A stretch of DNA of 64,000 nucleotides, from NCBI RefSeq assembly GCF_014640535.1, contig NZ_BMHD01000001.1, forward strand, positions 1,552,214 through 1,616,213. The letters are read 5' to 3'. Below are positions 6,424 through 41,422 of this stretch, one piece after another. A model generated the notes under the pieces. It did no database searches and was not told the DNA's origin. It was given only the letters and a program-made list of their open reading frames with translations. The DNA comes from Cnuibacter physcomitrellae. Lineage in GTDB: Bacteria > Actinomycetota > Actinomycetes > Actinomycetales > Microbacteriaceae. How positions within the stretch are numbered: position 1 is the stretch's first letter; the number at the start of each line of letters is the position of its first letter. The position numbers were made by a program, and so were the translations under genes.

Positions 6424-6492
6424 GGTTTCGCTGCCTCTGTGACCTTTCGCTGGGCCAGTGGGCCCGCGCAAGGTCAAAGAGGCAGCGAAACC
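6424..6492. repeat. Long intergenic palindrome (type with 19-nt spaced word)
   Basis: Arms 6424-6446 and 6470-6492 are 23 bp with one mismatch. The word TTTCGCTG occurs twice in the left arm and loop edge, at 6426 and 6445, exactly 19 nt apart. The loop contains a further GGGCC/GGCCC hairpin. It sits between the convergent menF and transglutaminase-like stop codons, so it may end transcription in both directions. Confidence 0.85.
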
Positions 6493-6507
6493 GGATCCGG
6501 AGCGCGC

Positions 6508-8793
6508 CTACGGGGTGGCGTAGGTCGGGATGAGGGAGTCGACCATCCAGCTCGAGTCCTCGGCGCGGGCGGCGCTGTCGGTGAAGCCCGAGTCGGGGAT
6601 CATCAGGTACTGGGTCGGGTCGCCGCCGTCGTTCCAGGTGGGGTCGACCGCGAGCCACTGGCCGTCGACGAACACCTTGTTCCACGCGTGGGGCCCGCCG
6701 GAGAAGACGTCGCCGCTGACCACGATGGTCTGGACGCCCGCGGCGTTGGCCAGCGCGTTGAACGCGTAGGCGTAGCTCGCACACACCCCGATCCCCTGCA
6801 GCATGGTGCCGGTGGCGTTCCAGGCGTTCTCGTGTCCGGCCGGGATGCCGCTGTAGGACACGTCGAGGAGCGAGTCGAACGCCGCGTAGTCGTACTCAGC
6901 GTTGTCGACCAGCCAGCCGTTGAGCGCGGTGACCTTCTCGCGATCGCTCATGCCGTCCGAGACGACGCTCCCGACCACCTCGTCGACCCTCTGCTTGAGG
7001 TTCGCCTGCATCGTCTGGACCTCCTCCGTGGGGAGGGCGTAGGTGACGAGCATCGTGTCGCCGCCGTCCCGGAGGCTGTAGTTGCTGATGTTGAAGGCGT
7101 ACGGGTTCTGCTCGCGCGCCTCCTCGAGCGCGTCGTACGGATCCGGGGCCCCGGGAGCGTCGACGTAGGCCGAGATGTCGATCAGCGCGGTCTGCGCGAT
7201 CAGGTGCGCGGCGAGGAAGCGGACGAAGTCCGAGCTGCCGAAGACCGGATAGGCGACCTGCGGGGTCTCCGAGACAGGCTCCTCATCGGGCACCTCCGGA
7301 GCGACGAACTCGTCGAATCGCGGCATGCCCGTCGGAGGAGCGGCGGCCAGGGCGGCCGCGTTGAACTGGGCGATGGCGGCGGCGGGATCCGGCATGGATC
7401 GCTTGGTGATCGGGATCCACTCGCCGAGTTGCGTGTTGCGCCCACGGAGCGGCACGATCCAGCGGTCACCGTAGTCGAGGATGACCGACTCGTCGATGTA
7501 GGCGACGGTGGATCGGGTCCGCCCGTCGACGGAGGTGAACGGGAGGACCTTCTGCACGTTCTCGATGCCCTCGATGTAGCCGCTGGCGCCCCAGTTCTTC
7601 AGCGCGGTGGCGGTGTGGAACGCCACCTCTCGAGGCAACCAGCCCGCCACCTCCTCCATGTCGTAGGCGGGGAAGGACGAGTACCGCTGGCCGTCGGTCG
7701 CGATGACGCCGATGTCGTAGCCCAGGGTCGACGCCGCGATCTCCTCCTCCGACTCGGGCTGCTCGTAGCCGCCGGTGATCTCGTCCTCGGTGATGCCGCG
7801 GTAGCTGTAGGAGTCGAGACCGACGTTCTGCGCGGAGACGAAGGGCGCTTCCTTCACCTCGTAGTCCTCGATGGCGCCGGCCGACGACCATTCGGTGCCC
7901 TCGACCCTGTCGAGGATCTCCCACGACCCGTTGCCGTCGTCCGTCACCTCGTGCGTGACGACGAGATACCGCTCCGCCCCGTCCACCGGCGCCCAGGTGA
8001 GGCTGATGGTGCCGTCCTCCGCCGCCTTCCCGAACGTGACGTCGGGCGACTCGAGCGAGGGCTGGACCGTGAACTCCGTGACGAGCGGCTTCGCCCGTTC
8101 GGTGCCGTCCTTCTCGGCGCGGCTCACCAGGTAGTACTTGTCGTGCATGCCCCAGCTGCTCAGGGGGTCGCCCTCTTCGGCGATGGGGCCCGGGTTCTCG
8201 CCGAACGCCTCCCCCATCTCGTCACCCGAGATCGTCACCTCGTCGCCCGGGTCGAGCTGGAAGACGGAGAACTCGGCCTTCTTGGTCAGCGCGGGGTCGT
8301 AGTACACCTCGAACGCCCAGTCGTTCGCACCCCTGGACGAGTCGGGGTCCGGCGCGTGCGCGGCATCGATCGCGTCGAGGTCGTAGTCGACGTCGATCTC
8401 GAACTGGTGGTTCCGCTCGAGGGCGAGCATCGGGTCGGTGTAGTCGTAGAGCGCGGACTTGTCGCTGTAGATCGTCTGCTGCTCACCCGTGAAGGCGGGG
8501 ACCACGACGAAGCCGACCACGAGGGCGATGACGGCCGCCATCGCGACGCCGCCGGAGACCAGTCCGATCATCAGGCCGCGGCGCTTGCGTCGCGGAGGCG
8601 TCGGAGCGCCCGGCCCCGAGGGTGCGCTCGCTGGGGACGCGCTCACCGCGGGGGCTGCCGCCGGGACGGCCGTCGCGGCGTCGGCGGAGTGGACGTGCGA
8701 CGTCCACTGCGACCCGTCCCAGTACCGCTGTCCCCGTGCGTCCCACGGATCCTGATACCACCCTGCGGGAGTTCCCCCCGTAGTACCCGACAC
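6508..8793 (-). CDS. DUF2510 - membrane helix - transglutaminase-like protein
   Basis: A 761-residue protein with an unusual order. DUF2510 (WYQDPWDARGQRYWDG) lies at about 11-30, then a Pro/Ala-rich linker with an RRKRRG stop-transfer, one membrane helix at about 72-100, and a large part expected outside the cell. A fibronectin-III-like stretch (ISLTWAPVDGAERYLVV) is near the middle. The C terminus is a transglutaminase/papain-like core: Cys671 in GVCASYAYAF, His702 in GGPHAWNKV and Asp717 in AVDPTWND form the expected triad. Such domains act as peptidases or crosslinkers, often on cell-surface substrates. The GTG at 8793 has GGGGAGG about 8 nt upstream. The domain calls are by eye; substrate and role are unknown. 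Confidence 0.8.
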   Translation of the reverse strand: MSGTTGGTPAGWYQDPWDARGQRYWDGSQWTSHVHSADAATAVPAAAPAVSASPASAPSGPGAPTPPRRKRRGLMIGLVSGGVAMAAVIALVVGFVVVPAFTGEQQTIYSDKSALYDYTDPMLALERNHQFEIDVDYDLDAIDAAHAPDPDSSRGANDWAFEVYYDPALTKKAEFSVFQLDPGDEVTISGDEMGEAFGENPGPIAEEGDPLSSWGMHDKYYLVSRAEKDGTERAKPLVTEFTVQPSLESPDVTFGKAAEDGTISLTWAPVDGAERYLVVTHEVTDDGNGSWEILDRVEGTEWSSAGAIEDYEVKEAPFVSAQNVGLDSYSYRGITEDEITGGYEQPESEEEIAASTLGYDIGVIATDGQRYSSFPAYDMEEVAGWLPREVAFHTATALKNWGASGYIEGIENVQKVLPFTSVDGRTRSTVAYIDESVILDYGDRWIVPLRGRNTQLGEWIPITKRSMPDPAAAIAQFNAAALAAAPPTGMPRFDEFVAPEVPDEEPVSETPQVAYPVFGSSDFVRFLAAHLIAQTALIDISAYVDAPGAPDPYDALEEAREQNPYAFNISNYSLRDGGDTMLVTYALPTEEVQTMQANLKQRVDEVVGSVVSDGMSDREKVTALNGWLVDNAEYDYAAFDSLLDVSYSGIPAGHENAWNATGTMLQGIGVCASYAYAFNALANAAGVQTIVVSGDVFSGGPHAWNKVFVDGQWLAVDPTWNDGGDPTQYLMIPDSGFTDSAARAEDSSWMVDSLIPTYATP

Positions 8794-8918
8794 GACCGAT
8801 CCTCCCCTTCCCCCGAAAGGCCTCGTTGCTTGCTTCTCCCCTCGATCCTGCCCTGCTTCTCAGCCGTCGCCAAGTCGAGCGGCGGCGGTCCATGCCGCCG
8901 ACGGCATGGGACAGGCCG

Positions 8919-10910
8919 CTACCCGACCCCGATCGGAAGCGGCTCGATCGTCATCGCGGCGGCCCCGCGCCCGACGGCGGAGACGATCATCATCTCGTCG
9001 GAGAGGCGGGCTCGGGAGAGAGAGACGCGACCGCGGAAGACGCCCGGCTCGGCGGGGGCGGGGCGAAGAATGTGGCCGTCGGCCCACACGCGGGCGTCGG
9101 CCGGGGCGGATGCTGACAGGCGTACCTCGACCTCCCAGGAGCGGCCTCGAGCCTCGATCGCGATCGACTCCGGGGTCGCGTCCGCCGCCTCCGCCGCACC
9201 GGATCCGTCCGCCTCGGTCGCGGGGACGGGGTCGATCTGGTTCGAGGGCAGGGTCGGGGTGAGGAACGCGGGCTGGCGGCGACGTGTGGCCCGCTCGTAC
9301 GCGCCGGCGCGGTCGAGGAGCGCGTCGTCGCTGTAGGCAGGGCCGGCGAAGGTCAGACCGACCGGCATCTGGATGTCGCCCATGAACCCCATCGGCACGG
9401 TGACCGTGGGGATGCCCAGGTGACGGATGACGCGATTGCCGTTGGAGTAGACGACACCATTGCGCGACGCGGCCTCGAGGCTCTCGGGCCTCTCGAACAG
9501 GTCGACCCGGCCCACGTCGCCGGCGGCCGGGAAGACGACGAGGTCGAGGCCCTCCGCCGCCATCCACTCCTCGAAGTCCTCCCTGCGAGCCTGCTCGAGC
9601 CCCTGCAGCAGCTGAGCCAGCCCCGGGACGTCGTCGAAGCGGGCGGGCAGCCCCTGCTTCACGAGCTCGGCGAGACGCTGCCAGTCGAAGCCGCCGCGGG
9701 CTCGGGTGATCCACACCGGGACCGGCGCGTCGGCGACGGGGAACACGGTGTCGCCGTCGACGTCGGCCCACGTGTCGAGGTGGGGATCCGCGTTGTCGCG
9801 CAGGAACGCATCCAGCGCCATCGCGGTGATCGGGCCGCCCTCGAGGGCGCGCCAGTTCGCCGGGACCAGGCCGCGCTCGGCCAGCCCTCTGGCGCCCGGG
9901 CGGTCCTCCTCGTAGTTCGACACGACGGGGAGGTCGACCTCCACGACCTCCGCTCCGAGCGCCCGCAGGTCGTCGGCGGCGCGATCCCAGAGCGCGCGCA
10001 CCGACGGACGGAGGGCGGGCGGATCGAGGGGCACGTCGTCCTCGCCGATGTAGAGGCGGGGAACGCCGATCCGCAGACCGTCGAGGCGATCGGGCCGGGG
10101 ACGCCGGATCGGATGCGGGAGGACGTCCTCGGGGCGCGGGAGCTCGACCGCGGACTGCTGCCGCCAGAAGTCGCCCGAGCGGTCGGGATCCTCGACCGCC
10201 AGCACGTCGAGGAGGAGCAGGAGGTCGTCCACCGAGCGCGTGTGGGGCACGACGACGTCGCACGTGGGGCGCAGCGGCCAGTTGCCGCGGATCGAGAGCA
10301 CACCCCGCGAAGGCGTGTAGGCGACGAGGCTGTTGTTCGAGGCGGGAGCGCGACCGGAGGACACGGTCTCCTCCGCCATCCCGAAGGCGCACATGCTCGC
10401 CGCGGTGGCGGTCCCGGAGCCGTTCGACGACCCCGATCCGTAGGCGGCGGTGAGGAACTGCGGATGGTACGGGCTGCGGGCGTAGTCGTAGACGCCGGGC
10501 TGCATCCCACCCGCCGCCATGGGCGGCATGTTGGTCTTGCCGAGGAGCACCGCGCCCGCGGCGCGGAGCTGGGCGACGGTGGCGGCGTCGTCGGTGGCGA
10601 CGAGGTCGGCGAGAGCCGGGCTGCCCGACGCGACCGTGAGGCCCTTGACCTTGTAGCTGTCCTTGACCGTGAAGGGCACACCCTCGAGCGGACCGGCCTG
10701 GCCCGCGCGGCGGCGGGCATCCGACGCGGCGGCCTGCTCCAGGCAGGTGGGGTCGAGCACGGCGATGGCGTGGAGGCACAGCCCGGTGCGGTCGTAGTAG
10801 GCGATCCGGTTGAGGTAGGCGGTGACCAGCTCGACGCTCGTCACCGCTCCGCTGTCGAGGGCCTCGAGCATGTCGGCGATGCCGAGCTCCACCACGTCGA
10901 TCCGGTCCAT
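8919..10910 (-). CDS. Amidase-signature-family hydrolase with C-terminal extension
   Basis: A 663-residue member of the amidase signature family (GatA-like fold, Ser-cisSer-Lys triad). The catalytic Lys lies in PFTVKDSYKVKG. The Gly/Ser-rich signature GSGSSNGSGTATAASM and the nucleophile region VSSGRAPASNN follow. Typical family members are 450-550 residues; here a C-terminal segment of roughly 110 residues (after RRRQPAFLTP) looks like a separate beta-rich domain. No signal peptide is visible, so cytoplasmic. The ATG at 10910 has a GGAAGGGCGG purine run at ribosome-site distance; upstream in-frame codons are ignored. Not an operon partner of gatB (no gatB or gatC nearby), so it probably hydrolyses a small amide rather than making Gln-tRNA. 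Confidence 0.88.
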   Translation of the reverse strand: MDRIDVVELGIADMLEALDSGAVTSVELVTAYLNRIAYYDRTGLCLHAIAVLDPTCLEQAAASDARRRAGQAGPLEGVPFTVKDSYKVKGLTVASGSPALADLVATDDAATVAQLRAAGAVLLGKTNMPPMAAGGMQPGVYDYARSPYHPQFLTAAYGSGSSNGSGTATAASMCAFGMAEETVSSGRAPASNNSLVAYTPSRGVLSIRGNWPLRPTCDVVVPHTRSVDDLLLLLDVLAVEDPDRSGDFWRQQSAVELPRPEDVLPHPIRRPRPDRLDGLRIGVPRLYIGEDDVPLDPPALRPSVRALWDRAADDLRALGAEVVEVDLPVVSNYEEDRPGARGLAERGLVPANWRALEGGPITAMALDAFLRDNADPHLDTWADVDGDTVFPVADAPVPVWITRARGGFDWQRLAELVKQGLPARFDDVPGLAQLLQGLEQARREDFEEWMAAEGLDLVVFPAAGDVGRVDLFERPESLEAASRNGVVYSNGNRVIRHLGIPTVTVPMGFMGDIQMPVGLTFAGPAYSDDALLDRAGAYERATRRRQPAFLTPTLPSNQIDPVPATEADGSGAAEAADATPESIAIEARGRSWEVEVRLSASAPADARVWADGHILRPAPAEPGVFRGRVSLSRARLSDEMMIVSAVGRGAAAMTIEPLPIGVG

Positions 10911-11008
10911 GCGTCCGCCCTTCCGTCCCGCTCCGCGCGATCCCCCCATCCTGTCAGCAGCGGGAGCCGCGCGCGGCACAGCGGACGCGCGTCAGCGGTC
11001 GCAGCGGG

Positions 11009-11179
11009 TCAGCGAGCGCGGTTGCGGCGGCGCAGGACGAGGAGCACGATGCCGCCGACGACGAGCACGGCGACGGCGATCCCCGCGATCAGGAGGGCGA
11101 CCTGCCCGTTCGCTCCGGTCTGGGCGAGCTCGCCGGAGGCGAGTTCGGATGCGCTGCCGAGCAGGGCGGTCGTGGTCAC
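11009..11179 (-). CDS. Tiny protein made almost only of an LAxTG sortase signal
   Basis: A 56-residue protein starting at a GTG with GAGGAG 7-8 nt upstream. After about 26 residues comes LAQTG, a hydrophobic helix (VALLIAGIAVAVLVVGGIVLLV) and a basic tail RRRNRAR. That is the layout of a cell-wall sorting signal; LAxTG is the pentapeptide favoured by class E sortases. No N-terminal signal peptide is present, so how it would reach a sortase is unclear. It could also act as a simple small membrane protein. No sortase gene is in the window. It follows the Old Yellow Enzyme gene but is separated by a strong palindrome, so it is likely its own transcript. Confidence 0.7.
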   Translation of the reverse strand: MTTTALLGSASELASGELAQTGANGQVALLIAGIAVAVLVVGGIVLLVLRRRNRAR

Positions 11180-11252
11180 GGTGGTGCTCCTCGCGGTCGT
11201 GCGGCGCCGGCCACGCCGCTGCCCCCACCTTAACCCCTCCCGTCCGCCACAC

Positions 11253-11296
11253 CCAGGTGGTTCCGCCATCCCGATCGGCATGGCGGAACCACCTGG
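11253..11296. repeat. Long intergenic palindrome (type with 19-nt spaced word)
   Basis: Perfect 17-bp arms 11253-11269 and 11280-11296 around a centre that is itself CCGATCGG. The word TCCGCCA occurs at 11243 and 11262, 19 nt apart. It lies just past the stop of the Old Yellow Enzyme gene and ahead of the LAxTG peptide gene, so terminator use is plausible. Confidence 0.85.
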
Positions 11297-11332
11297 AGAT
11301 GGCGAAGTGGAGTCCGCGCCGGGCGGCGCGGG

Positions 11333-12406
11333 TCAGGACCAGCGGGCGCGGTCGTACTGGAGGGGCCAGGCGACCTCGGCGCCGAGCTCGTGCGCGGCGC
11401 GGAGGGGGAAGCGGGGGTCGCGGAGGAACTGGCGCGCCATCGTGACCGCGTCGACCTCGCCCGAGGCGACGAGCTCCTCCGCCTGCCCCGCCTCCGTGAT
11501 CAGGCCCACCGCGCTCACCGGCACGCCCGCGGTCTCGCGGATGTACCGGGCGTGCGGCACCTGGTAGAGCGGATGCACGTCGATCTCCTGATGGGCCACC
11601 AGACCTCCCGTGGACACGTCGAACAGGTCGGCGCCGGCATCCTGAGCCCAGCGCGCGACGCGGGCGGCGTCCTCGCGCTCGAACCCTCCTGGCGCCCAGT
11701 CACTCGCCGACAGGCGCACGATCACGGGCACCGACTCCCCCACCTCGGCGCGCACCGCGCGCACCACCTCGAGCAGGAACCGGGCGCGCCCCTCCAGCGA
11801 TCCACCCCACTCGTCGGTGCGCTCGTTCGACAGCGGCGAGAGGAACTCGTGGAGGAGGTACCCGTGCGCAGCGTGCAGCTCGATGACGTCGAACCCGGCC
11901 GCGACGGCACGGCGGGCGGAGGCGGCGAACGCCTCGACGAGACCGCGCACCTCGTCGCCGGTGAGCTCGCGGGGCTGGGCGTAGCGCCCGAACGCGATCG
12001 CCGACGGCGCCACCGTCGGCCACCCGCCCGAGCCCTCGGGCACTGTGCCGCGCTCGGCCGCCCAGGGGCGGTACGTCGACGCCTTACGTCCTGCGTGGGC
12101 GAGCTGGATCCCCGCCACCGCCCCCTGCGCGTGCAGGAAGCCGACGATGCGCGCGAACGCGGCCTGCTGCTCGTCGTTCCACAGGCCCAGGTCCTGCGGG
12201 GAGATCCGTCCCTCGGGCACGACCCCGGTGGCCTCGACCACGATGAGCCCCGCTCCCCCGGTCGCGAACGCCCCGAGGTGCGCCAGATGCCAATCCGTGG
12301 GCACGCCGTCCTCCGCCTCGACGGAGTACTGGCACATCGGCCCGACCCAGAGCCGGTTCGGGAAGGTCACGTCACGGAGCGTGAAGGGGGAGAACAAGGC
12401 GGACAT
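11333..12406 (-). CDS. NADH:flavin oxidoreductase, Old Yellow Enzyme (YqjM type)
   Basis: A 357-residue FMN-dependent ene-reductase with a TIM-barrel fold. Motifs: GPMCQYS near the start (FMN and active-site Cys, as in YqjM), QLAHAGRKAS, ELHAAHGYLLHEFLSPLSN with the substrate-binding His pair, and EWGGSLEGRARF. The YqjM subfamily reduces activated C=C bonds of enals, enones and nitro compounds in the cytoplasm and is often linked to stress. The ATG at 12406 is preferred over the ATG at 12412: GAGAGG ends 6 nt before the former but abuts the latter. No obvious operon partner; DUF1345 lies upstream on the same strand. Confidence 0.92.
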   Translation of the reverse strand: MSALFSPFTLRDVTFPNRLWVGPMCQYSVEAEDGVPTDWHLAHLGAFATGGAGLIVVEATGVVPEGRISPQDLGLWNDEQQAAFARIVGFLHAQGAVAGIQLAHAGRKASTYRPWAAERGTVPEGSGGWPTVAPSAIAFGRYAQPRELTGDEVRGLVEAFAASARRAVAAGFDVIELHAAHGYLLHEFLSPLSNERTDEWGGSLEGRARFLLEVVRAVRAEVGESVPVIVRLSASDWAPGGFEREDAARVARWAQDAGADLFDVSTGGLVAHQEIDVHPLYQVPHARYIRETAGVPVSAVGLITEAGQAEELVASGEVDAVTMARQFLRDPRFPLRAAHELGAEVAWPLQYDRARWS

Positions 12407-12491
12407 GGTCATCCTCTCGGAGGGAAGCGGGGCGGGACGGAGACGGACACGCGAGGCGGCCGACGGGGACTGCGGGTGCGGAGACGGGTGA

Positions 12492-13151: not shown

Positions 13152-13161
13152 CGGATGCGGA

Positions 13162-15132
13162 TCACCGGGGCAGGATGCTCGAGTCGGTCAGCAGGAGCGG
13201 CGCATCCGTCACCGGCACGTCGATGTGCATGTGGGTGCAGGAGTCGTCGAACTCGGTCCAGTTCGTGAACGAGAGCTTGATGCCCGCCGAGGCGCGGCAC
13301 TCGGCCTGACCCACGTGCGCGCCCTTCGGCATGATCGGGTCGAGGATGCTGATCATCTTGAGGGTGTTCGCATCCGCCCCGTTGAGGCTCGCGTTGTTGA
13401 GCAGGTAGAAGTCGACCGCGTGGCCGCCGCCGTCGATGTAGTGCGACGACGCGGTGCCCGCGCCCTCGATCTGGCCCGTGCACTTGCGGTTGATGTCGCT
13501 GACGCCCACCTGATCGAAGTTGTGCAGCGCGATCACGATGATCTCGAGGATGCGGTAGTCGACGCCGCAGTCGGGCACCGTGACGCCGTCCGCGATGTAC
13601 TGGATCTCCTTGATGTGATCGGGCACCGACCCGACGAGCTTGCCGGAGGCGTACGCCGCCATGATCTCCTGAGCGAGCTGACGACCCACGAGCATCTGGG
13701 CGCTCGAGTAGCCGGCCGCCTGCAGCTCGCCCGCATCCGACACCGCGTAGCCGTCGCGGTCGACGGTGCCCGTACTGGCGGTGTTCGCCGTGACGAGCTC
13801 CTGACCGGGGGTGTTCACCGTGAGCGCCGACTGGACGATGCCCGCGTCGATCGGGCTCGCCGACACCGTCGTGGGGATCGCCATCACGGCCGTCATGCCG
13901 AGCACGAAGAGCATCGCGACACCGGAGAAGAGGCCCTTTAACCAGGCCGGACGCCGGACCGCGCTCGACGACGGACGCGGGGCAGACGGCGTGGGCGCGC
14001 CCTTGCTGCGGTCGGCGCGGGACGCGGGGCGCCAGGCGGTGCGGACACGACGCACCCGCTTCTCCGCGCGGCGGGGGCGAGACGGCGCCGGGAGGCGGAG
14101 GGCATCGGGCGTGACCGGATCGGTCGGCTCCACCTCGAGGGTCAGCGGATCGAGAGCCTCGTCGACGGGCTCGATCGTGAGGGTCTGCAGCTCGATCTCG
14201 CGGAGGAGGACCTCGGTGGGCTGGTCGGCCGCGGGGTCGGTCTCGTCGAGAGGGGTCTCGGCGGCGTCGGCGGGGATGTGCGCGGGGAGCGGGGAGGGGA
14301 CGAGGGCGGCGGCGTCGTCGGGGGTGTCTTCGGTGACGGGGGCGGCGGCGTCTTCGGTGACGGGGGCCGCGGTGTCGGGGGCTTCTGCCGTGTTGCTCGG
14401 GGAAGCGTCGGTGGAGGTCTCGATGTCCTCCCCTCGAGTCGACGGGGCCCTACCCGATACTCGTGGGGAGGACATCGAGACCTCCACCGCCTCCGCCGTG
14501 CGGGCGGGGGTGGGGGCTCCGTCGTCGGCGGGGAGGGAGGAAGGAGTGTCCTCGGACGGCTTCGCGCGACGGCCGCGCTGGCGTCGGGCCGGGGGTTCGG
14601 CGATCTCGGCGAGGATCTCGTCGACCGGGATGGGGGCGGTCTTGGAGGAGACGACGTCGATGGTGGGTGCCGGGATGGCGGGGGTGTCGTAGTCGGCCGG
14701 GATGAGGGCCATGCGGAGGCTGCGGCGGCCCGGGGTCGAGCGGGCGGCCTCGGCCTGCTCGTCGCGGCGGCGGGAGCGGCGGGAGATCACCGCCTCGGCT
14801 CGGGCCGGGCCTTCGGCCGGGGCGGAAGAGGCACTCGCCGGGGCGGGAGCGGGGGCAGGAGCCGGGCCTGCGGCCGGAGCGGAGGAGGCACTCGCCGGGG
14901 CCGGAGCCGGGCCTGCGGCCGGAGCGGAGGGGGCACCGGTCCCGGAGGGAGCGGAGGGGGCACTGGTTCCGGAGGGGGCGGAGGAGGCGGTGGGGGTGAG
15001 GGCGCGGCGCTGGGACTCGCGGAGCTCGAGCTCGCGCTGGGCGCGGCGGGAGAGGGGCTGGGAGGGTGCCTCGGTCGACCGGATGCGCGGGCGTCGAAGG
15101 GGCTCGTCGCGCGTAGGGTCGGTGGGGCTCAA
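13162..15132 (-). CDS. Large membrane-anchored protein with possible M15-like domain
   Basis: A 656-residue protein. Residues 1-400 are low-complexity, rich in Ala, Pro, Ser, Thr and Glu and presumably disordered and cytoplasmic. One membrane helix lies at about 402-425 (GLFSGVAMLFVLGMTAVMAI). Residues 426-656 form an outer domain with four Cys (522, 551, 612, 632), ASSHY and GGGHAVDF (His564, His571, Asp574) and THMHIDVP (His634, His636). The spacing resembles the SxHxxGxAxD and HxH metal sites of M15 D-Ala-D-Ala peptidases, but this is a by-eye match. The start is a TTG at 15132 with a GAGAG purine run upstream. Codons 215-241 contain a 24-bp perfect inverted repeat. It probably shares a transcript with the DUF1345 gene. 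Confidence 0.65.
   Translation of the reverse strand: MSPTDPTRDEPLRRPRIRSTEAPSQPLSRRAQRELELRESQRRALTPTASSAPSGTSAPSAPSGTGAPSAPAAGPAPAPASASSAPAAGPAPAPAPAPASASSAPAEGPARAEAVISRRSRRRDEQAEAARSTPGRRSLRMALIPADYDTPAIPAPTIDVVSSKTAPIPVDEILAEIAEPPARRQRGRRAKPSEDTPSSLPADDGAPTPARTAEAVEVSMSSPRVSGRAPSTRGEDIETSTDASPSNTAEAPDTAAPVTEDAAAPVTEDTPDDAAALVPSPLPAHIPADAAETPLDETDPAADQPTEVLLREIELQTLTIEPVDEALDPLTLEVEPTDPVTPDALRLPAPSRPRRAEKRVRRVRTAWRPASRADRSKGAPTPSAPRPSSSAVRRPAWLKGLFSGVAMLFVLGMTAVMAIPTTVSASPIDAGIVQSALTVNTPGQELVTANTASTGTVDRDGYAVSDAGELQAAGYSSAQMLVGRQLAQEIMAAYASGKLVGSVPDHIKEIQYIADGVTVPDCGVDYRILEIIVIALHNFDQVGVSDINRKCTGQIEGAGTASSHYIDGGGHAVDFYLLNNASLNGADANTLKMISILDPIMPKGAHVGQAECRASAGIKLSFTNWTEFDDSCTHMHIDVPVTDAPLLLTDSSILPR
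14410..14488. repeat. Perfect 24-bp inverted repeat inside a coding sequence
   Basis: Arms 14410-14433 and 14465-14488 are exact reverse complements with a 31-base spacer whose ends also pair (CTCGAGT with ACTCGTG). The arms begin and end GGTCTCGAT / ATCGAGACC. The element is read in frame in the low-complexity part of the gene (codons about 215-241), giving VEVSMSSP on one side and GEDIETST on the other. Confidence 0.9.
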
Positions 15133-15350: not shown

Positions 15351-15397
15351 GAATGCGCACCTCGATGGCGGGTGCCGACTGCGAGATCGAGGGCGAC

Positions 15398-26867: not shown

Positions 26868-27659
26868 TCAGCGGCGCCTGAAGACGGCGTCTCGCTTCTC
26901 GGCGAAGGCGCGCCGCCCCTCGGCGGCGTCCTCCGTGGCGAACGTGATGGTCTGGAGGTCGCGCTCGTAGCGGATGGCCTCGTCCTGCGTCATCGTGAAG
27001 GCGGCGCGGAGGTTGGCCTTCGCGGTCTCGGCGGCGATCGGCGGCCGGGTCGCGATCGTGGCCGCGAGCTCGCGTGCCCGCGGCAGCAGCGCATCCGGCT
27101 CGACGACCTCGGAGACGAGGTTCCAGGCCAGCGCCTGCTGCGCGGTGATCGGATCGCCGGTCATGATCATCACGGCGGCGTTCGACGGGCCGATCGAGTG
27201 GGCCAGGAACGTGCTCATGCCACCGCCGCCGATCCAGCCGAGCTTGATCTCGGGTGCCGCGAACGAGGCCGTCGACGACGCGAGGCGGATGTCGCAGGTC
27301 ATCGCCGTCTCGAGTCCGCCGCCGAACGCGTAGCCGTTCACCGCGGCGATCAGCGGCTTCCGCAGGAGCCGCAAGGCGTCGCAGTAGTCCTCGCGGTTCC
27401 GGAACTCCCAGGGCGTGCGGTACTTGTCGAGCGAGCGGATGTCGCTGCCCGCGCAGAAGGCGCGCTCCCCCGCTCCGGTCAGCACGACCGCCCGGACCTC
27501 GTCCTCGTCGTTCGCCCAGGTCGCGGCGACGACGAGCGCATCCGACATCTCCTGGGTGACCGAGTTCAGCTTCGCGGGCCGGTTGATCGTGATCGTCGCG
27601 ACATGTCCGTCGAGCTCCAGCAGGATCTCGTCGGTGCCCAGGTCGGGTGTGCTCACCAC
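26868..27659 (-). CDS. Enoyl-CoA hydratase/isomerase family protein
   Basis: A 263-residue crotonase-fold enzyme. The oxyanion-hole segments are AFCAGSDI and NGYAFGGGLETAM; the Glu in PEIKLGWIGGGG is placed as a catalytic acid. It acts on an acyl-CoA, which fits the class III CoA-transferase two genes upstream. Starts at a GTG pair (27659/27656) overlapping the stop of the binding-protein-like gene, so translation is coupled. Reaction (hydration, hydrolysis or isomerisation) cannot be set from sequence. Confidence 0.87.
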   Translation of the reverse strand: MVSTPDLGTDEILLELDGHVATITINRPAKLNSVTQEMSDALVVAATWANDEDEVRAVVLTGAGERAFCAGSDIRSLDKYRTPWEFRNREDYCDALRLLRKPLIAAVNGYAFGGGLETAMTCDIRLASSTASFAAPEIKLGWIGGGGMSTFLAHSIGPSNAAVMIMTGDPITAQQALAWNLVSEVVEPDALLPRARELAATIATRPPIAAETAKANLRAAFTMTQDEAIRYERDLQTITFATEDAAEGRRAFAEKRDAVFRRR

Positions 27660-28792
27660 TGTTCCGTCACTTTCTGCGGGTGTTGGGCCGCCACACCCAC
27701 CGGAAGTGACGGATCAGGGGATGCGGCGCGGAGCGCCGCGAGCGCGGAGGGGATCGTGAGCTCGCCGGACAGGGCGTCGCGGATGATCGCGGACGCGTCG
27801 GCCTGGAACCGGATGTATCCGGAGTAGCGGGGGCGCACCCAGGAGTCCTCGATGGTGGCGAGCGTCGAGCGGTAGAAGCCGTGCGCGGCGCCGTTCACGG
27901 CGTCGTCGAGCCAGGCGGTCCGGGTGCTGGGCTGGCCGGCGTGCGCGGGGATGAACCCGACCTGCGCCTCGGACGACATCAGCCACTCGATGTGGTGCAC
28001 GAGCTCGGGGGTGACCTCGCACCGCCGACTCAGCGCGAGCCCGGTGCCGCCGATCGTCGAGCCCAGGCGACCGCCGGCGACGGCGGCCGGGGCGTCCGCG
28101 AAGCGCACGGTCGGCGACGAGTAGTTCACGTACCCGTAGACCAGGGGCACGTAGGCGATGTCGGCGGTGTCGGTCATCCGCTCGAGCAGCGCGATCGGGT
28201 TCTGCGTCTCGGCGTCGCGCGGAGCGCGGGCGGCGATCGACCGCATCCGATCGAGCACCTCGGTGCCCACCACGTCGTCGTCGAAGGCGGATCCGAAGGC
28301 GACGCACATCGACGCGAAGGTGAGGAAGGCGTGCGGGCCGGCGAGCGAGAGGACGACCGGGACGGAGCGGGACAGCGCCTCCACCTCGTCCCACGTGCCG
28401 GGCTCGGCGGGGCACAGGTCCGCGCGGCGGACCGACACCTGCGTGGCGGCGTCCAGCGGCAGCGCCCACTGACGCCCCGCCACCTCGTACGAGGCGAAGG
28501 ACGGCCCGACCGCCTCCCCGGCCCAGCGCTCGAGCTGCGCCGCGGACACGACGTCGTCGATCGGACGGAGGGACCCGAGCTCGAGCGCCTCGCCGAGATG
28601 CGGATGGTCGAGGACGATCAGGTCGTAGCGCTCCGCGAGGTCGTCGATCGGATGCGACTCGAAGTGCTCGAGGGAGTGGGCGTCCCACACGATGTCGAGG
28701 CCCGAACCCGCCGAGCGCTCGCGCGCGGCGGCGGCTCGCAGCGCATCCCTCCCGCGAGGGTGGTCCCAGGTGATGCCGCGATAGGACGTCAT
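27653..28792 (-). CDS. Solute-binding-protein-like protein without export signal
   Basis: A 379-residue protein with the fold pattern of family 1 extracellular binding proteins (LPLDAATQVSVRRAD, IEWLMSSEAQVGFIPAHAGQPS) but no signal peptide and no lipobox. It starts directly with MTSYRGITWDHPRGRDAL. It should therefore be cytosolic, and it is not next to any permease. It overlaps the CoA-transferase stop by 4 bp and the enoyl-CoA hydratase start, so the three are a tight unit. It may sense or hold a ligand of this pathway. Its last 15-20 codons run through an imperfect palindrome (27664-27712), so the native C terminus may be shorter in relatives. Confidence 0.75.
   Translation of the reverse strand: MTSYRGITWDHPRGRDALRAAAARERSAGSGLDIVWDAHSLEHFESHPIDDLAERYDLIVLDHPHLGEALELGSLRPIDDVVSAAQLERWAGEAVGPSFASYEVAGRQWALPLDAATQVSVRRADLCPAEPGTWDEVEALSRSVPVVLSLAGPHAFLTFASMCVAFGSAFDDDVVGTEVLDRMRSIAARAPRDAETQNPIALLERMTDTADIAYVPLVYGYVNYSSPTVRFADAPAAVAGGRLGSTIGGTGLALSRRCEVTPELVHHIEWLMSSEAQVGFIPAHAGQPSTRTAWLDDAVNGAAHGFYRSTLATIEDSWVRPRYSGYIRFQADASAIIRDALSGELTIPSALAALRAASPDPSLPVGVAAQHPQKVTEQW
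27664..27712. repeat. Imperfect palindrome across a gene end
   Basis: Arms 27664-27683 and 27693-27712 (20 bp, three mismatches), starting CCGTCACTT. It is read as the C-terminal codons of the binding-protein-like gene and ends 4 bp from its stop. It resembles the intergenic palindromes in size and in the TTCCGTCA / CGCCAC words. Confidence 0.65.
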
Positions 28793-32076: not shown

Positions 32077-32136
32077 GGCTTTGTCCAGGTTTCCGTCGCC
32101 ATCCGGCGGATTGGCGACGGAAACCTGGACAAAGCC
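32077..32136. repeat. Perfect 25-bp intergenic palindrome (family B)
   Basis: Arms 32077-32101 and 32112-32136 are exact reverse complements around a 10-base spacer. The core TTTGTCCAGGTTTCCGTCGC is identical to that of the palindrome at 40275-40340. It lies after the sugar-isomerase stop and before the SDR gene, so it may end or weaken read-through between the two. Confidence 0.92.
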
Positions 32137-32176
32137 GGGGCGGGGGGCGAGGGGGCGGAGCCCCCACCCCTCCGCG

Positions 32177-33091: not shown

Positions 33092-33164
33092 GGCGTCGTT
33101 GCTCCTTGATGTGGCGAGTGTTCGGTGGTGAGGGGTCGGATGCGGCGGGTCGGGCGAGCGGCGA

Positions 33165-34259: not shown

Positions 34260-34314
34260 CGGGGGTTCCTCTCGCTTCGTTGCGAACTGCGTTCGATCAC
34301 AGTACCGGAAATCG

Positions 34315-34341
34315 TTGATAGCGCTACTGGCAGCGCTGCCA
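34315..34341. promoter_or_regulatory. Two LacI-type operators in a divergent promoter region
   Basis: A perfect 14-bp palindrome TGGCAGCGCTGCCA (34328-34341) lies next to a second AGCGCT-centred half-matched site (TTGATAGCGCTACT, 34315-34328), centres 12 bp apart. The first matches the site on the CoA-transferase promoter at 30095-30108. Position between the divergent Gfo/Idh/MocA and importer genes suits joint control. Confidence 0.7.
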
Positions 34342-34454
34342 AAATTACGTTAGTGTCGGGCCACACCATCCGTCAACCACAGCGATTCACCGGCGAATCG
34401 AGCGGGAACCGTGCCCGGTTGACCTTCTGCACAACGCATTTCAAGGGAGAAATC

Positions 34455-35534: not shown

Positions 35535-35569
35535 GCCGCGGACGTCCCTCTTCCAAGGAGATCACTGAC

Positions 35570-37204
35570 GTGACAGACGCACAGACGGGCGCGGCGACCA
35601 CCTCGGTCGCGGCGCCCGTCGCCTCCCCTCCCTCCGGCACCCCCGCCGACGCGGCGCGCGCCGGGACCTCGCCCTCCGACACCGTCCCCACCGACGCCCT
35701 GCTCGTCGCGACCGACCTGGTCAAGAGCTACGGACCCGTCAAGGCGGTGCAGGGGGTCACCTTCCACTGCATGCCCGGCGAAGTGCTCGCCCTCGTCGGA
35801 GAGAACGGCGCCGGCAAGAGCACGGTGGCGAAGATGCTCGCGGGCGCGGTGACGCCCACCTCGGGTGCCATCACCGTCTCCGGGGCCCCTCTCGCCTCGG
35901 GCAGCGTGCGTCAGTCGCGGCAGTCCGGCGTCCGATGCGCGTTCCAGGAGCTGGCCCTCGTGCCCGACTGGACCGTCGCGGAGAACCTCAGCCTCCCCGA
36001 CGGCGCTCCGCTCCGCGGCTTCTCGCAGAAGAAGGCGGTGCGGGCGGCGCGCGAGCTGCTCGACGCCCTGCACCTCCCGCAGATCGACCCGCGGGCCGCG
36101 GTCGGCTCGCTCTCGCTGGCCGACCGGCAGCTCGTCGAGATCGCCCGGGCGCTCGCCGGCGCACCGACGCTGCTCATCCTCGACGAGGCGTCGTCGGCGC
36201 TCACCCCGCCGGGTGTGGCCTGGCTGTTCGAGCGCATCCGCGAGCTCACCGCGCAGGGCGGGAGTGTCATCTACGTGTCGCACCGGCTCGGCGAGATCGC
36301 CGAGATCGCCGACCGCGGCACCGTCCTCCGCGACGGGCGGGTCGCGGGAGAGTTCGTCCGCGGCGGATGGACCGACGACCAGCTCATCTCGATGATGGCC
36401 GGCCGCGAGGCCGAACGCTTCTTCCCCGCACCGCCGCCTCGCACCTCGGATGCAGTGGCCCTGTCGGTCGAGAACCTCCGGGCCGAGGGCCTCCGCAGCG
36501 TCTCGCTCGAGGTGGGCGCGGGCGAGATCCTCGGCGTCGGCGGGCTGCAGGGCCACGGTCAGGCCGAGCTCCTGCGCGCGCTGTTCGGGGCGAGCCCCGC
36601 TCAGGCCGACTCGTGGACCGTGGGCGGCCGGCGCATCCGCCGCACCACCCCGGTGCGCTCGGTCGCCCGCGGACTCGGATACGTGCCCGAGGACCGCAAG
36701 AAGGAGGGCCTGGCGCTCGAGATGAGCGTCGGCGAGAACCTCCTGGCGCCGTGGTTCCGGTGGTGGCAGCTCGGCGGTCGGCCCCGTCTGTCGAAGGAGA
36801 GGGGCTGGATCTCCGGCATCCTCTCCGTCCTGTCGGTCCGCACCCGCGGACCGCTCGAGCTGGCGGGCTCGCTGTCCGGCGGCAACCAGCAGAAGCTCGT
36901 GTTCGGTCGCTGGATGAACCGCGACCGCACCGTCATCCTCCTGCACGACCCCACGCGAGGCATCGACGTGCGGGCCAAGCAGGAGCTCTATGGAGCGATC
37001 GTCGACCTCGCGGAGCAGGGCGTCGGCATCCTCTGGTTCTCGACCGAGGTGGAGGAGCTCGTGCACGTGTGCCATCGAGTCGTCGTGCTGTACCAGGGCC
37101 GCGTCGCCGACGAGCTGACCGGCGACCGGCTGACCCCGGATGCGGTGGTCGGCGCCGCCGTCACCGGATCGAGCGCGGCGATCAGGGGCGGAGCCGTCGC
37201 ATGA
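35570..37204 (+). CDS. Ribose-type ABC importer ATPase (two nucleotide-binding domains)
   Basis: A 544-residue duplicated ATPase of the RbsA/XylG/MglA group. Domain 1 has Walker A GENGAGKST, signature SLSLADRQLVEIARAL and Walker B LLILDEASSAL. Domain 2 has the degenerate loop GGLQGHGQAELL usual for the group, signature LSGGNQQKLVFGRW and LHDPTRGIDV. An Ala/Pro/Thr-rich tail of about 40 residues precedes domain 1. The start is a GTG at 35570 with AAGGAG 9 nt upstream. The gene overlaps the permease start by 4 bp. Confidence 0.93.
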   Translation: MTDAQTGAATTSVAAPVASPPSGTPADAARAGTSPSDTVPTDALLVATDLVKSYGPVKAVQGVTFHCMPGEVLALVGENGAGKSTVAKMLAGAVTPTSGAITVSGAPLASGSVRQSRQSGVRCAFQELALVPDWTVAENLSLPDGAPLRGFSQKKAVRAARELLDALHLPQIDPRAAVGSLSLADRQLVEIARALAGAPTLLILDEASSALTPPGVAWLFERIRELTAQGGSVIYVSHRLGEIAEIADRGTVLRDGRVAGEFVRGGWTDDQLISMMAGREAERFFPAPPPRTSDAVALSVENLRAEGLRSVSLEVGAGEILGVGGLQGHGQAELLRALFGASPAQADSWTVGGRRIRRTTPVRSVARGLGYVPEDRKKEGLALEMSVGENLLAPWFRWWQLGGRPRLSKERGWISGILSVLSVRTRGPLELAGSLSGGNQQKLVFGRWMNRDRTVILLHDPTRGIDVRAKQELYGAIVDLAEQGVGILWFSTEVEELVHVCHRVVVLYQGRVADELTGDRLTPDAVVGAAVTGSSAAIRGGAVA

Positions 37205-38208
37205 GCGCCGTCACTCCCCCGGTCTCGCGGTTCGGGTTCCTGAACGGCACCGGCATCACCCGGCTCCGCCGCGAAGGCGCGATCGCCCCGATCGGCGCGT
37301 TCGTGATCTTCTTCGTGGTCTATGTGGCGATCAACCCGTCGCTGCTCACCCGGTTCCAGCTGCAGACCGCGGCGAACCTCGTCGTGCCGCTCGCGCTCGT
37401 CGCCCTCGGGCAGCTCATCATCGTGCTCGTCGGCGGCATCGACATCTCCATCGGCGCGATCATGAGCCTGTCGAACGTCGTGTTCGCCGTGCAGATGGAG
37501 ACCATGCCCGTGCCGGTCGCGATCCTCATCGGACTCGCCACGGGCCTCGCGTGCGGACTCTTCAACGGGCTGCTCGTGGCGTACGGCGGGTTCCCCGCCA
37601 TCGCGGTGACGCTGGCCTCGGCGTTCATCTTCGGCTCTCTCTCGCGCGAGGTGCTCGACGCCCCCGGCGGCGGCATCACCAAGGAGTTCTACCTCGCCAC
37701 CTCGGGCGAGCTGCTGCCGTTCCTGCCGATCTCCCTGGTCTGGCTCGCCGTCGTGGCCGTGCTGCTCTGGCTGCTGCTGCAGCGCACGGCGCTCGGCCGC
37801 CACATCTACGGCGTCGGGTCGAACATGGAGAGCGTCCGCGCCGCCGGCCTGAACGCGCGGCTGACGAAGCTCATCGCGTTCGGGCTCTCGGGCGTGCTCG
37901 TGTCGATCGGCGCGATCCTCCTCGCCGGGTCGACCGTCACCGGCGACCCGCGCTCCGGCGATCCGTACCTGCTGTCGTCGATCGCCGCCGTCGCTCTCTC
38001 CGGTGCGGCCTTCACCGGCGGGCGCGGGTCGATCATCGGCACCATCCTCGCCGCCTGCACGCTCGGCCTCATCGGCAACCTGCTGTTCTTCGCCGGCATC
38101 AACTCGTACTGGCAGTACGTCATCTCGGCGCTCATCATCGTCGCGGTCGTCGGGATCCCCGTCGTCTGGCGCCGGGTGGCGTTCGCCGTGAAGGGAGCCC
38201 GATCATGA
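37201..38208 (+). CDS. Ribose-type ABC importer permease 1
   Basis: A 335-residue membrane permease of the CUT2 (RbsC-like) family, with about 8-10 hydrophobic segments. GGIDISIGAIMSLSNVVFA and GRHIYGVGSNMESVRAAGLN are family hallmarks. The ATG overlaps the ATPase stop (ATGA), and its own stop overlaps the next permease start. The presence of two different permeases suggests a heterodimeric channel. Confidence 0.92.
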   Translation: MSAVTPPVSRFGFLNGTGITRLRREGAIAPIGAFVIFFVVYVAINPSLLTRFQLQTAANLVVPLALVALGQLIIVLVGGIDISIGAIMSLSNVVFAVQMETMPVPVAILIGLATGLACGLFNGLLVAYGGFPAIAVTLASAFIFGSLSREVLDAPGGGITKEFYLATSGELLPFLPISLVWLAVVAVLLWLLLQRTALGRHIYGVGSNMESVRAAGLNARLTKLIAFGLSGVLVSIGAILLAGSTVTGDPRSGDPYLLSSIAAVALSGAAFTGGRGSIIGTILAACTLGLIGNLLFFAGINSYWQYVISALIIVAVVGIPVVWRRVAFAVKGARS

Positions 38209-39296
38209 GCACGACCGCAGCGACCGGGCACTCCGCCGGATCGAATCCGGATGAGGTGACCAGCGCATCCGGCGCCCTCGGCACGACGGCGGAGCCGGTC
38301 GGGCCCACGGGGTCCTCCTCCCCCGGCGCGGGGCCCGCCCGCTCCTCCTCGGGGCTGTCGTGGCTCGGGCGTGTGCCGCGCGCGGTGTGGCCGCTGCTGG
38401 CCTTCCTCGTGCTGTTCGGCATCGGCGGCCTCATCCGCCCCAACCTCATCACGGTCGACTCGCTCATCGGCACGGCGACGTTCGCGATCATCCTCGCGAT
38501 CGCGTCGTTCGGGCAGACGGTCGCGGTGATCCAGGCGGGCATCGACCTCTCGGTGCCGAACACCATCGGGTTCGCGGCCCTGTCGTTCCTGGCGTGGGTG
38601 GGGCCGCTCGGGCCGGTCGGCGCGTTCGTCGCCGCGCTCCTGTCGGGCGCGGTGATCGGGGCGCTGAACGGGCTCGTGATCTCGAAGCTGCAGCTGACGC
38701 CGATCGTGACCACGATCGCGATGAACGGGCTGCTGTTCGGGGTGATCCTGCTCGCGTTCAACTTCTCGGAGCTCACCGTCGTGCCGGACTTCGTCGTCGC
38801 GATCACGTCGGCGAAGATCGAGGTGTTCGGGATCACCATGGCGGCGGTCTTGCCGCTCGGTCTCGGTCTGATGGTCGTGCTGCAGCTCATCCTGTCGTTC
38901 ACCGGATGGGGGCGCTCGCTCTTCGTCACCGGCTCCGCGGCCGAGGTGTCGCGGCTCGCCGGGCTCTCGGTGGACCGCATCCGCATCTCGGGATACGTGG
39001 TGTCGGGCCTTCTCGCCGCCTTCGCCGGCATCGTGATCGTGGGGTACTACCAGCAGGCGTCCGCGACGATGGGCGCGAGCTACCTGCTCTCGTCGGTCGC
39101 CGCGGTCGTCGTCGGCGGCGCGTCGATCTTCGGCGGACGCGGCTCCGTCGTCGGCACCGTGGGCGGCGCCCTCGTGCTGGCGCAGGTGAGCACCCTCGTG
39201 ACGGTGCTGAACCTCGGGGCGAACATCCAGCAGCTCATCTACGGCGTGATCATCCTCGTGGTCATCTCCCTCTACGGCCGCCGCCGCGGCGCGTGA
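38205..39296 (+). CDS. Ribose-type ABC importer permease 2
   Basis: A 363-residue CUT2 permease with a Ser/Gly/Pro-rich cytoplasmic N-terminal tail of about 60 residues before the first helix. QAGIDLSVPNTIGFAALSF and TGSAAEVSRLAGLSVDRIRI are the family stretches. The ATG at 38205 overlaps the stop of permease 1 by 4 bp. Last gene of the importer operon; a perfect 24-bp palindrome follows the stop. Confidence 0.92.
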   Translation: MSTTAATGHSAGSNPDEVTSASGALGTTAEPVGPTGSSSPGAGPARSSSGLSWLGRVPRAVWPLLAFLVLFGIGGLIRPNLITVDSLIGTATFAIILAIASFGQTVAVIQAGIDLSVPNTIGFAALSFLAWVGPLGPVGAFVAALLSGAVIGALNGLVISKLQLTPIVTTIAMNGLLFGVILLAFNFSELTVVPDFVVAITSAKIEVFGITMAAVLPLGLGLMVVLQLILSFTGWGRSLFVTGSAAEVSRLAGLSVDRIRISGYVVSGLLAAFAGIVIVGYYQQASATMGASYLLSSVAAVVVGGASIFGGRGSVVGTVGGALVLAQVSTLVTVLNLGANIQQLIYGVIILVVISLYGRRRGA

Positions 39297-39303
39297 GCCC
39301 GTG

Positions 39304-39365
39304 TCGCCACACCCTTGGCCTTTCGCCCTGCGCATGCATGTGGCGAAAGGCCAAGGGTGTGGCGA
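39304..39365. repeat. Perfect 24-bp intergenic palindrome (type with 19-nt spaced word)
   Basis: Arms 39304-39327 and 39342-39365 are exact reverse complements with a 14-base loop containing GCATGC. The word TCGCC occurs at 39304 and 39323, 19 nt apart. It begins 8 bp after the permease stop and ends 8 bp before the next -10 box. Confidence 0.92.
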
Positions 39366-39372
39366 ACGTGAT

Positions 39373-39378
39373 TAGGGT
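39373..39378 (+). promoter_or_regulatory. Likely leaderless -10 box (TAGGGT)
   Basis: TAGGGT ends 6 nt before the GTG at 39385. It follows the palindrome at once, so the aldo/keto reductase probably has its own promoter rather than read-through from the importer operon. Confidence 0.5.
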
Positions 39379-39384
39379 GAGGAC

Positions 39385-40251
39385 GTGACGAACACCGTGC
39401 CTGTCTTCGAGCTCGACACCGGAACCCTCATGCCGCAGCTGGGACTGGGGGTGTGGCAGGCCTCCGACGAGGAGACGGAGCGCGTCGTGCGCTTCGCGAT
39501 CGACGAGGCCGGCTACCGCCACATCGACACCGCCCGCGCGTACGGCAACGAGGAGGGCGTCGGGCGGGCGATCGCGTCGGCGTCGGTGCCCCGCGAGGAC
39601 CTCTTCGTCACCACGAAGCTCTGGAACAGCGACCACGGGCGCTCGCGCACGCTGACGGCGGTGGATGCGTCGCTGTCGCGACTGGGGCTCGACTACCTCG
39701 ACCTGTTCCTCATCCACTGGCCCCTCGGCGACCGCGACCGGCTGGTGGAGACGTGGCTGGCGATGGAGGAGATCCTGGAGTCGGGCAAGGCCCAGGCCAT
39801 CGGCGTGTGCAACCACGAGCCGCACCACCTCGACTGGATCCTCGAGGGCGGATCGGTCGTGCCCGCGGTGAACCAGATCGAGCTGCACCCGCGCCTGCCG
39901 CAGTGGGTATCGCGCGCGTTCGACGACTCGCACGGGATCGTGACCGAGTCGTGGAGCCCGCTCGGCGGCACCAGCAACTCCGGGTGGGGCGGCGACTCCA
40001 AGCCCAACACCCTGCTGACCGACGAGACGCTCGTGTCGATCGGCGAGCAGTACGGCAAGACGCCGGCGCAGGTGATGATCCGCTGGCACCTGCAGAACGG
40101 GCTCGTCGTGATCCCGAAGTCGACGCACGAGGAGCGCATCCGTCAGAACATCGACGTGCTCGACTTCGAGCTCACGGGCGCGGACATCGAGCGCATCGCC
40201 CAGCTGGAGACCGGCGAGCGCGTCGGCTACCACCCCGACGACTTCGTCTGA
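39385..40251 (+). CDS. Aldo/keto reductase, 2,5-diketogluconate reductase type
   Basis: A 288-residue NADPH-dependent aldo/keto reductase. The catalytic tetrad is in YRHIDTARAYGNE (Asp, Tyr), VTTKLWN (Lys) and LIHWPLGD (His). IPKSTHEERIRQN binds the cofactor phosphate. This branch reduces 2,5-diketo-D-gluconate, methylglyoxal and other carbonyls. It differs from the aldo/keto reductase at 21927 and is not in its operon. GTG start at leaderless distance from a TAGGGT box. Confidence 0.9.
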   Translation: MTNTVPVFELDTGTLMPQLGLGVWQASDEETERVVRFAIDEAGYRHIDTARAYGNEEGVGRAIASASVPREDLFVTTKLWNSDHGRSRTLTAVDASLSRLGLDYLDLFLIHWPLGDRDRLVETWLAMEEILESGKAQAIGVCNHEPHHLDWILEGGSVVPAVNQIELHPRLPQWVSRAFDDSHGIVTESWSPLGGTSNSGWGGDSKPNTLLTDETLVSIGEQYGKTPAQVMIRWHLQNGLVVIPKSTHEERIRQNIDVLDFELTGADIERIAQLETGERVGYHPDDFV

Positions 40252-40274
40252 TCCCGTCCGCTCGGCTCGCGTGC

Positions 40275-40340
40275 CCGGGGTTTGTCCAGGTTTCCGTCGC
40301 CTTTTCACCGATTCGCGACGGAAACCTGGACAAAGCCCGG
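40275..40340. repeat. 26-bp intergenic palindrome (family B)
   Basis: Arms 40275-40300 and 40315-40340 with one mismatch. The 20-base core TTTGTCCAGGTTTCCGTCGC is identical to that at 32077-32101, while the spacers differ. It lies between the convergent aldo/keto reductase and DMT transporter genes. Confidence 0.92.
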
Positions 40341-40387
40341 CTACATGAGCGCGGATGCGGAGCGCGAAGCGCGCTTCGACGGGAGCG

Positions 40388-41323
40388 TCAGCGCGGGGTG
40401 CGGCGGCGGGCGGGGATCGTGGCGATGGCGACGCCGAGCACGACGACGAGGATCGCGGCGGGGGTGGTCCAGTCGAGGGGCGCGACGCCGGGGAGCGCGA
40501 GGTCGAGCACGAGGGCGCCGGTGAGCTGACCGGCGACCGTGCAGAGGCCGAGGATGAGGACCCCCGTCACGCGGACGGCCGTCGCCAGCCCGAAGATGAA
40601 CGCGACGCCGAGCACGCCGCCGGTGTAGAGCCACCAGTCGCCGGGATACGCCGTCGGCAGACCCGTGCCGGCGACGGCCGCGTGGATGACGAGCGCGATG
40701 ACGAGCCCCGCCGTCCCCATCACGAAGTTGACGAACGTGCTCGTGACGCCCGAGCCGACAGCGGCGCCGAGGCGTCCGTTGCCACCCTGCTGGATCGCGT
40801 TCACGAAGCCCGCGATCAGCGGCAGCAGGAGCAGCCACACGGGGATGTCGACGCGGATGTGCGCCGACACCGACCAGACGACCGCCGCCACCGCGAGAGC
40901 GGCGCCGAGCGCGCGGCGCGTGGTGATGGGGCGCCGACCGCCGGGACCGAGCCCGAGGCGGTCGACGAGGAGTCCGCTGGCGGTGAGCCCGCCCACGAAG
41001 GCGATCGTGAACACCGAGATGCCGACCGCCACCGACGCGATGCTCTGCGTGAGGACGAAGAACGCCCCCGAGAGACCGCCGAACAGCGGCCACACGGGCA
41101 GCCGTCCCTCGCGCACCGCGGGGGCGATGCGGCGGAGCCCCCGCCGCCCCGACGGCATGAGCAGGAGGATCACCGTGACGATCACGAGCCCCGAGCCGAA
41201 GCTCAGGACGCTGGCCGAGAACCCGTCGCCGAGCCGGGTGCCGAGCTCGCCGTTCACGCGCGACTGCGTGGCCATGAGCGCGCCGCAGACGAACGCGATC
41301 ACGACCGCGAGCCACAGCGGCAT
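40388..41323 (-). CDS. DMT-superfamily transporter (DUF606/YdcZ, two repeats)
   Basis: A 311-residue membrane protein with about ten helices formed by two DUF606 (YdcZ) repeats; each begins with a helix followed by an asparagine-rich turn (MATQSRVNGELG and NAIQQGGNGRLG). Substrate unknown; relatives are predicted drug or metabolite exporters. I start at ATG 41323, where the first helix begins. A further ATG at 41386 lies in the loop of a long palindrome and has no ribosome site; a GTG at 41335 is also possible. Confidence 0.85.
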   Translation of the reverse strand: MPLWLAVVIAFVCGALMATQSRVNGELGTRLGDGFSASVLSFGSGLVIVTVILLLMPSGRRGLRRIAPAVREGRLPVWPLFGGLSGAFFVLTQSIASVAVGISVFTIAFVGGLTASGLLVDRLGLGPGGRRPITTRRALGAALAVAAVVWSVSAHIRVDIPVWLLLLPLIAGFVNAIQQGGNGRLGAAVGSGVTSTFVNFVMGTAGLVIALVIHAAVAGTGLPTAYPGDWWLYTGGVLGVAFIFGLATAVRVTGVLILGLCTVAGQLTGALVLDLALPGVAPLDWTTPAAILVVVLGVAIATIPARRRTPR

Positions 41324-41348
41324 GAGCGGGCGCACCGCGCCCGCCGCA

Positions 41349-41422
41349 TCCGTTCCGCCACCCTGCTGGCGTTCCGCCACGCTCATGCGCGTGGCGAAGG
41401 GGCAGCAGGGTGGCGGAACGGA
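41349..41422. repeat. Perfect 20-bp nested palindrome (type with 19-nt spaced word)
   Basis: Outer arms 41349-41368 and 41403-41422 are exact reverse complements. An inner 8-bp stem (41375-41382 with 41389-41396) closes a 6-base loop. TTCCGCCA occurs at 41353 and 41372, 19 nt apart. It starts 8 bp past the helicase stop on the minus strand and likely ends that transcript. Confidence 0.92.

Follow-up and report, generated by a model that had tools for sequence, protein, structure and literature searches.

REP-like palindromes are among the commonest repeats of bacteria, and in the literature searched their mobilisation is attributed to the RAYT transposase. In the systems formed by REP or REPIN sequences and RAYT enzymes (REPtrons), dispersed extragenic palindromes mostly adjoin gene 3' ends in convergent or tandem gaps, the enzyme gene is flanked by its own palindromes, and several families are present per genome, each with an enzyme (PMC3733652; PMC8049555). 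A second system relevant here is represented by the EDxHD (Vsr-fold) homing endonucleases, of which I-Bth0305I forms a dimer on a target site nearly 60 bp long (PMC3943268). By description, the MTES_1575 domain is also a Vsr-family nuclease (PMC3710099). No link of the MTES_1575 and DUF559 domains to palindromic repeats, and no description of a palindrome/nuclease system of the kind presented below, was found in the open-licence literature searched.

The window analysed, that is, the whole stretch of 64,000 nucleotides of Cnuibacter physcomitrellae DNA, contains all four of the long palindromes listed in a preliminary description. Three of them, at 11242..11307, 39302..39367 and 41353..41418, follow exactly a 66-bp plan consisting of an 8-nt word, an 11-nt core, the word again, a 12-nt centre and the mirror image, with the four words of each copy at +0, +19, +39 and +58 and the last two inverted. 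The fourth, at 6424..6492, is a related, less symmetric variant whose left words (TTTCGCTG, at 6426 and 6445) are likewise 19 nt apart, while its right half is shifted by one base and its inner right word has decayed. The variant, termed class C, lies between the converging genes 5157..6410 (+) and 6508..8793 (-), and has relatives at C1:177997, 2006065, 3144612 and 3407312. The palindrome at 11242..11307 belongs to class A, with centre CGATCG, and is located downstream of a flavin oxidoreductase gene (11333..12412, -). The other two belong to class B: the copy at 39302..39367, with centre GCATGC, starts 5 nt past the stop codon of a gene for a transport permease (end at 39296, +), and the copy at 41353..41418 lies 11 nt past that of a DEAD-box helicase gene (41430..43625, -). 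When folded as RNA, the four window copies form hairpins of about -47 to -57 kcal/mol, and Rfam gives no match in the window at gathering score.

The palindromes are members of a dispersed family in this genome. The half-pattern TTYCGCCA-N11-TTYCGCCA occurs 44+43 times (87) with up to one mismatch, against 0+0 for the reversed-pattern control, and 91+89 times (180) with up to three mismatches, against 26+32 (58), which corresponds to about 55-60 palindromes; a lack of excess of the 19-nt arrangement over controls, which the preliminary description had named as refuting its reading, is not observed. The word is nearly restricted to these palindromes in the 414 kb of genome sequence examined, and tandem extension by extra 19-nt units is also seen (C1:2006154-2006218). 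The earlier statement that the cores differ completely was too strong, as the 66-bp copies fall into two main core classes tied to the centre: class A cores ending in GTGG or GCTG go with CGATCG, class B cores ending in TGGCC, TGGCG or TGACC go with GCATGC, and class C represents a third variant. Within a copy, the two arms agree at 9.0 (class A) and 8.6 (class B) of 11 core positions, compared with 7.6 and 7.0 after shuffling of arms among copies of the same class, and 0 of 2000 shuffles reach the observed agreement. Thus, symmetry is maintained copy by copy, whether through structural selection or through some copying mechanism; conservation of the cores merely by common descent of one copy was examined and does not describe the data. 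The exact 66-bp plan with TTYCGCCA words has no match among the GTDB r220 genomes, where the genome under study may be absent, and among 150 Microbacteriaceae genomes the TTYCGCCA pattern is enriched in this genome only, indicating that these words are specific to its lineage.

The family resembles REPtrons in being made up of some 55-60 extragenic copies beside gene 3' ends. Indeed, 32 of 54 copies are found in convergent gaps, 19 in tandem gaps, 1 in a divergent gap and 2 overlapping called genes, compared with 14 convergent, 66 tandem and 30 divergent among background gaps of at least 60 nt (convergent excess p = 7e-10, with gene calls from our own codon-usage-based caller), and the distance from stop codon to palindrome is 2-30 nt for most copies. 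C-rich sequence past stop codons was considered as a target preference and rejected, as convergent gaps without these palindromes show the same. The palindromes nevertheless differ from REP sequences, since they measure about 58-72 bp, with words 19 bp apart in each arm, compared with 20-40 bp for REP, and since the two-fold symmetric 66-bp copies lack, in their alignment, the GTAG or CGTC end tag. Moreover, the PF01797 profile for Y1_Tnp (RAYT, IS200) finds nothing in the genome, while controls score. The absence of RAYT and of the tag, together with the different length, means that the defining features of REP/RAYT systems are missing.

A different enzyme occupies the corresponding position. 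Two near-identical class A palindromes flank a gene for a 307-aa nuclease (L051:2095-3018:-; C1:3473294-3474217), an arrangement like that of REPtrons, except that the linked protein is a Vsr/EDxHD-like nuclease and not an HUH tyrosine transposase (Y1_Tnp). This protein combines an AbiEi-like N-terminal part, which in some family members matches the AbiEi_4 or AbiEi_1 models, with a Vsr/EDxHD-like C-terminal nuclease part, suggested by a conserved residue pattern and weak profile matches; near-invariant residues of catalytic type in the family are E198, D230, E241, D243, K247, E266 and K267. It thereby differs from AbiEi antitoxins and their winged-helix relatives in having a nuclease domain fused, and no AbiEii-type toxin gene was noticed adjoining its gene. 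Three further relatives in the genome belong to a sister clade (clade 2), homologous to that of the class A enzyme (clade 1) with an HHalign probability of 99.9; among the clade-2 proteins, 10 of 14 match Pfam MTES_1575 and 7 of 14 match DUF559. One of them (L160:1303-2298, -) adjoins nine copies of the class D palindrome (GATCTGACACTCGTGGYG), which is present in about 100 copies genome-wide. Class D palindromes form arrays with regular steps of ~105, 143 and 127 nt (L160:307-1280; C1:3271358-3272377; C1:3248107-3248755), while class A and B copies are mostly single. Another (C1:1093412-1094344) lies between two palindromes of class E, a family of about 25 copies that is represented in the window at 32077..32136 (TTTGTCCAGGTTTCCGTCGC) and 40265..40350. 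The third (C1:1767257-1768180) is bordered, on a single side, by a palindrome containing the class G word CGAGTGCTCA. This word also occurs in a window palindrome at 59342..59398 and in a looser inverted pair at 22..110, whose arms are separated by 47 nt and whose assignment is uncertain. Taken together, the class A, D, E and G neighbourhoods place four nucleases beside four palindrome families, and the genome yielded no nuclease belonging to class B, C or F. The same holds for an additional, ATCACGAGATACGCGCAAGC-like family of palindromes with copies at C1:2103869, 2103973, 1901274 and 3145149.

The same pairing is present in other genomes. Homologs of the nuclease are encoded by 121 of the 200 Microbacteriaceae genomes searched. 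Of 69 clade-1 loci in other Microbacteriaceae, 28 have long palindromes both to the left and to the right of the gene, 22 have them on a single side and 19 lack them. At 57 conserved helicase control loci of the same family, partly from genomes other than those of the nuclease loci, these figures are 2, 14 and 41 (p = 4e-7), with palindrome thresholds that were set by us and were identical for the two sets. The left and right palindromes belong to the same family in 27 of the 28 two-sided loci, whereas only 41 of 756 cross-locus pairs share sequence. The best internal-repeat offset at 50 clade-1 loci is 19 in 31, 20 in 5 and 18 in 3, with shuffles giving about 1 at 19, and this offset recurs though the words vary between lineages. 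In clade 2, palindromes are two-sided at 21 of 48 loci and of the same family in 20 of these 21, but the settings used were slightly laxer, so that the comparison with the controls is fully matched for clade 1 alone. A 19-nt repeat is found in just 1 of 38 clade-2 loci, and the 19-bp plan is thus tied to a single clade of nucleases. In comparisons across genera, the more alike two nucleases are, the more alike are their palindromes (0 of 2000 permutations). Homologs are also common beyond Microbacteriaceae: 112 of the 148 genomes sampled from the class have them, a count in which a few Microbacteriaceae are included. Flanking palindromes were present at only 8 of 22 loci outside the family, and the viral contigs searched contained no nuclease relative.

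Linked to nuclease genes and matched to them family by family, spaced at 19 bp in one clade, kept complementary arm to arm and placed past stop codons, the nested palindromes are best explained, with a probability of roughly two in three, as dispersed, REP-like elements with a partner nuclease, which recognises them and probably spreads or maintains them. Each site would offer the nuclease four points of contact, the words, and a dimer or a dimer of dimers could cover the site. I-Bth0305I offers a comparison: the clade-2 profile weakly matches the structure 3r3p (E = 0.016), which is listed as a mobile intron protein and which we take to be that enzyme, the order of catalytic-type residues is similar, and the length of its target is close to that of the palindromes. 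In contrast to EDxHD homing endonucleases, the nucleases described here are not associated with an intron, carry an AbiEi-like N-terminal part and go with numerous palindromic sites scattered through the genome, where a homing endonuclease has a single site. Cutting or nicking at the palindromes, followed by copying repair or transposition, would both spread them and keep their arms alike, and they may persist mainly past stop codons because insertion is harmless there or yields a useful 3'-end hairpin. The preliminary description had pointed to structural selection or a dedicated mechanism, and both parts gain support, the former from the matching of arms with their own partners and the latter from the 19-nt plan as a hallmark of the palindromes of one nuclease clade, with mobilisation by the nuclease as the step that we infer. 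Counting against the pairing are the 19 of 69 clade-1 loci without a flanking palindrome at the threshold used, the low share of flanked loci outside the family (8 of 22), the failure to find nucleases for classes B, C and F, and the presence or absence of palindromes in only two Plantibacter gaps, which look like replacements.

An alternative that we regard as improbable is that the palindromes are bidirectional transcription terminators or 3'-end stabilisers of mRNA, kept alike by gene conversion or selection, with the nuclease link being secondary. Their concentration in convergent gaps (32 of 54 copies) shortly past stop codons would fit such a role, as would the stability of the folded window copies and the finding that 31 of the 32 convergent gaps hold no other canonical terminator. 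Compared with an intrinsic terminator, defined by a G+C-rich hairpin followed by a U-tract, the hairpin is strong but the U-tract is missing, the 16 nt outside the palindromes being G-rich and T-poor. Shared words and a fixed 19-nt repeat are, moreover, not a trait of ordinary terminators, and neither the two-sided flanking of nuclease genes nor the matching of palindrome and nuclease families is explained in this way. A role at 3' ends and the pairing with a nuclease could, on the other hand, coexist.

Two other explanations concern the nuclease itself, and both appear very improbable. AbiEi-like proteins might regulate their own genes, the palindromes being operators bound by the winged-helix part; this would agree with the AbiEi_4 and AbiEi_1 matches of some members and with one flanking palindrome preceding the nuclease gene at many loci, but not with the second palindrome downstream of it, nor with dispersed copies that sit at gene 3' ends and almost never in divergent gaps, which is the opposite of what operators do. 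Alternatively, host repeats of other origin might serve as homing sites into which a homing-type nuclease gene inserts, so that the enzyme would not spread the palindromes at all. A nuclease gene between near-identical, and at L212 and L275 fully identical, palindromes looks as if a site had been duplicated on insertion, and the weak match of the clade-2 profile to the homing endonuclease structure 3r3p would also fit. However, there are few nuclease genes per genome compared with tens of palindromes, the words are new in every lineage and match the nuclease found there, and insertion at homing sites leaves both the dispersal of the palindromes and their 19-nt plan unexplained.

The recurrence of the pairing with distinct sequences in other Microbacteriaceae points to a class of palindromes, not described so far, that spread with the help of an enzyme. 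In a broader formulation, to which we give even odds, these would be mobile palindromes of bacteria that form a class of their own, common across Microbacteriaceae and driven by AbiEi-like/Vsr-type nucleases instead of HUH transposases, in which each clade has its own palindrome architecture (word pairs spaced by 19 bp in clade 1) and each family evolves new words along with its nuclease. With an enzyme family unrelated to RAYT in this role, the palindrome lifestyle would have evolved at least twice. The pairing would also hint at what a large group of actinobacterial nucleases with poor annotation does, and would provide many natural nuclease/site pairs for recognition studies.

Comparison of related genomes gives little evidence of palindrome movement. 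In two putative Plantibacter genomes of ~95% identity, two gaps past the same stop codon contain a palindrome in one genome that is absent from the other; their interpretation as clean empty sites was rejected, as the gaps look like replacements and not like clean insertions. A different, GGTCACTGAGCCTGTCGAAG-like palindrome recurs (L313 near G049:C3:306101; L314/L313 near 323963), filling gaps where the sister genome has another palindrome. In three genomes of one genus (L280-L309, genus g50), the dispersed copies are composites of ~167 bp made up of a palindrome and further words (CCAGCGCGGTGCGCTGACG), reminiscent of REPIN/BIME composites. Other palindromes were also seen in the window. A strong one at 14409-14489, with 31-bp arms that are 97% complementary, overlaps a called coding sequence, while the one at 27656-27720 and another downstream of a helicase gene in Herbiconiux (L098) both hold TCCGTCACTTT..TGCG-like arms and, judging from this resemblance, may represent a palindrome family common to more than one genus.
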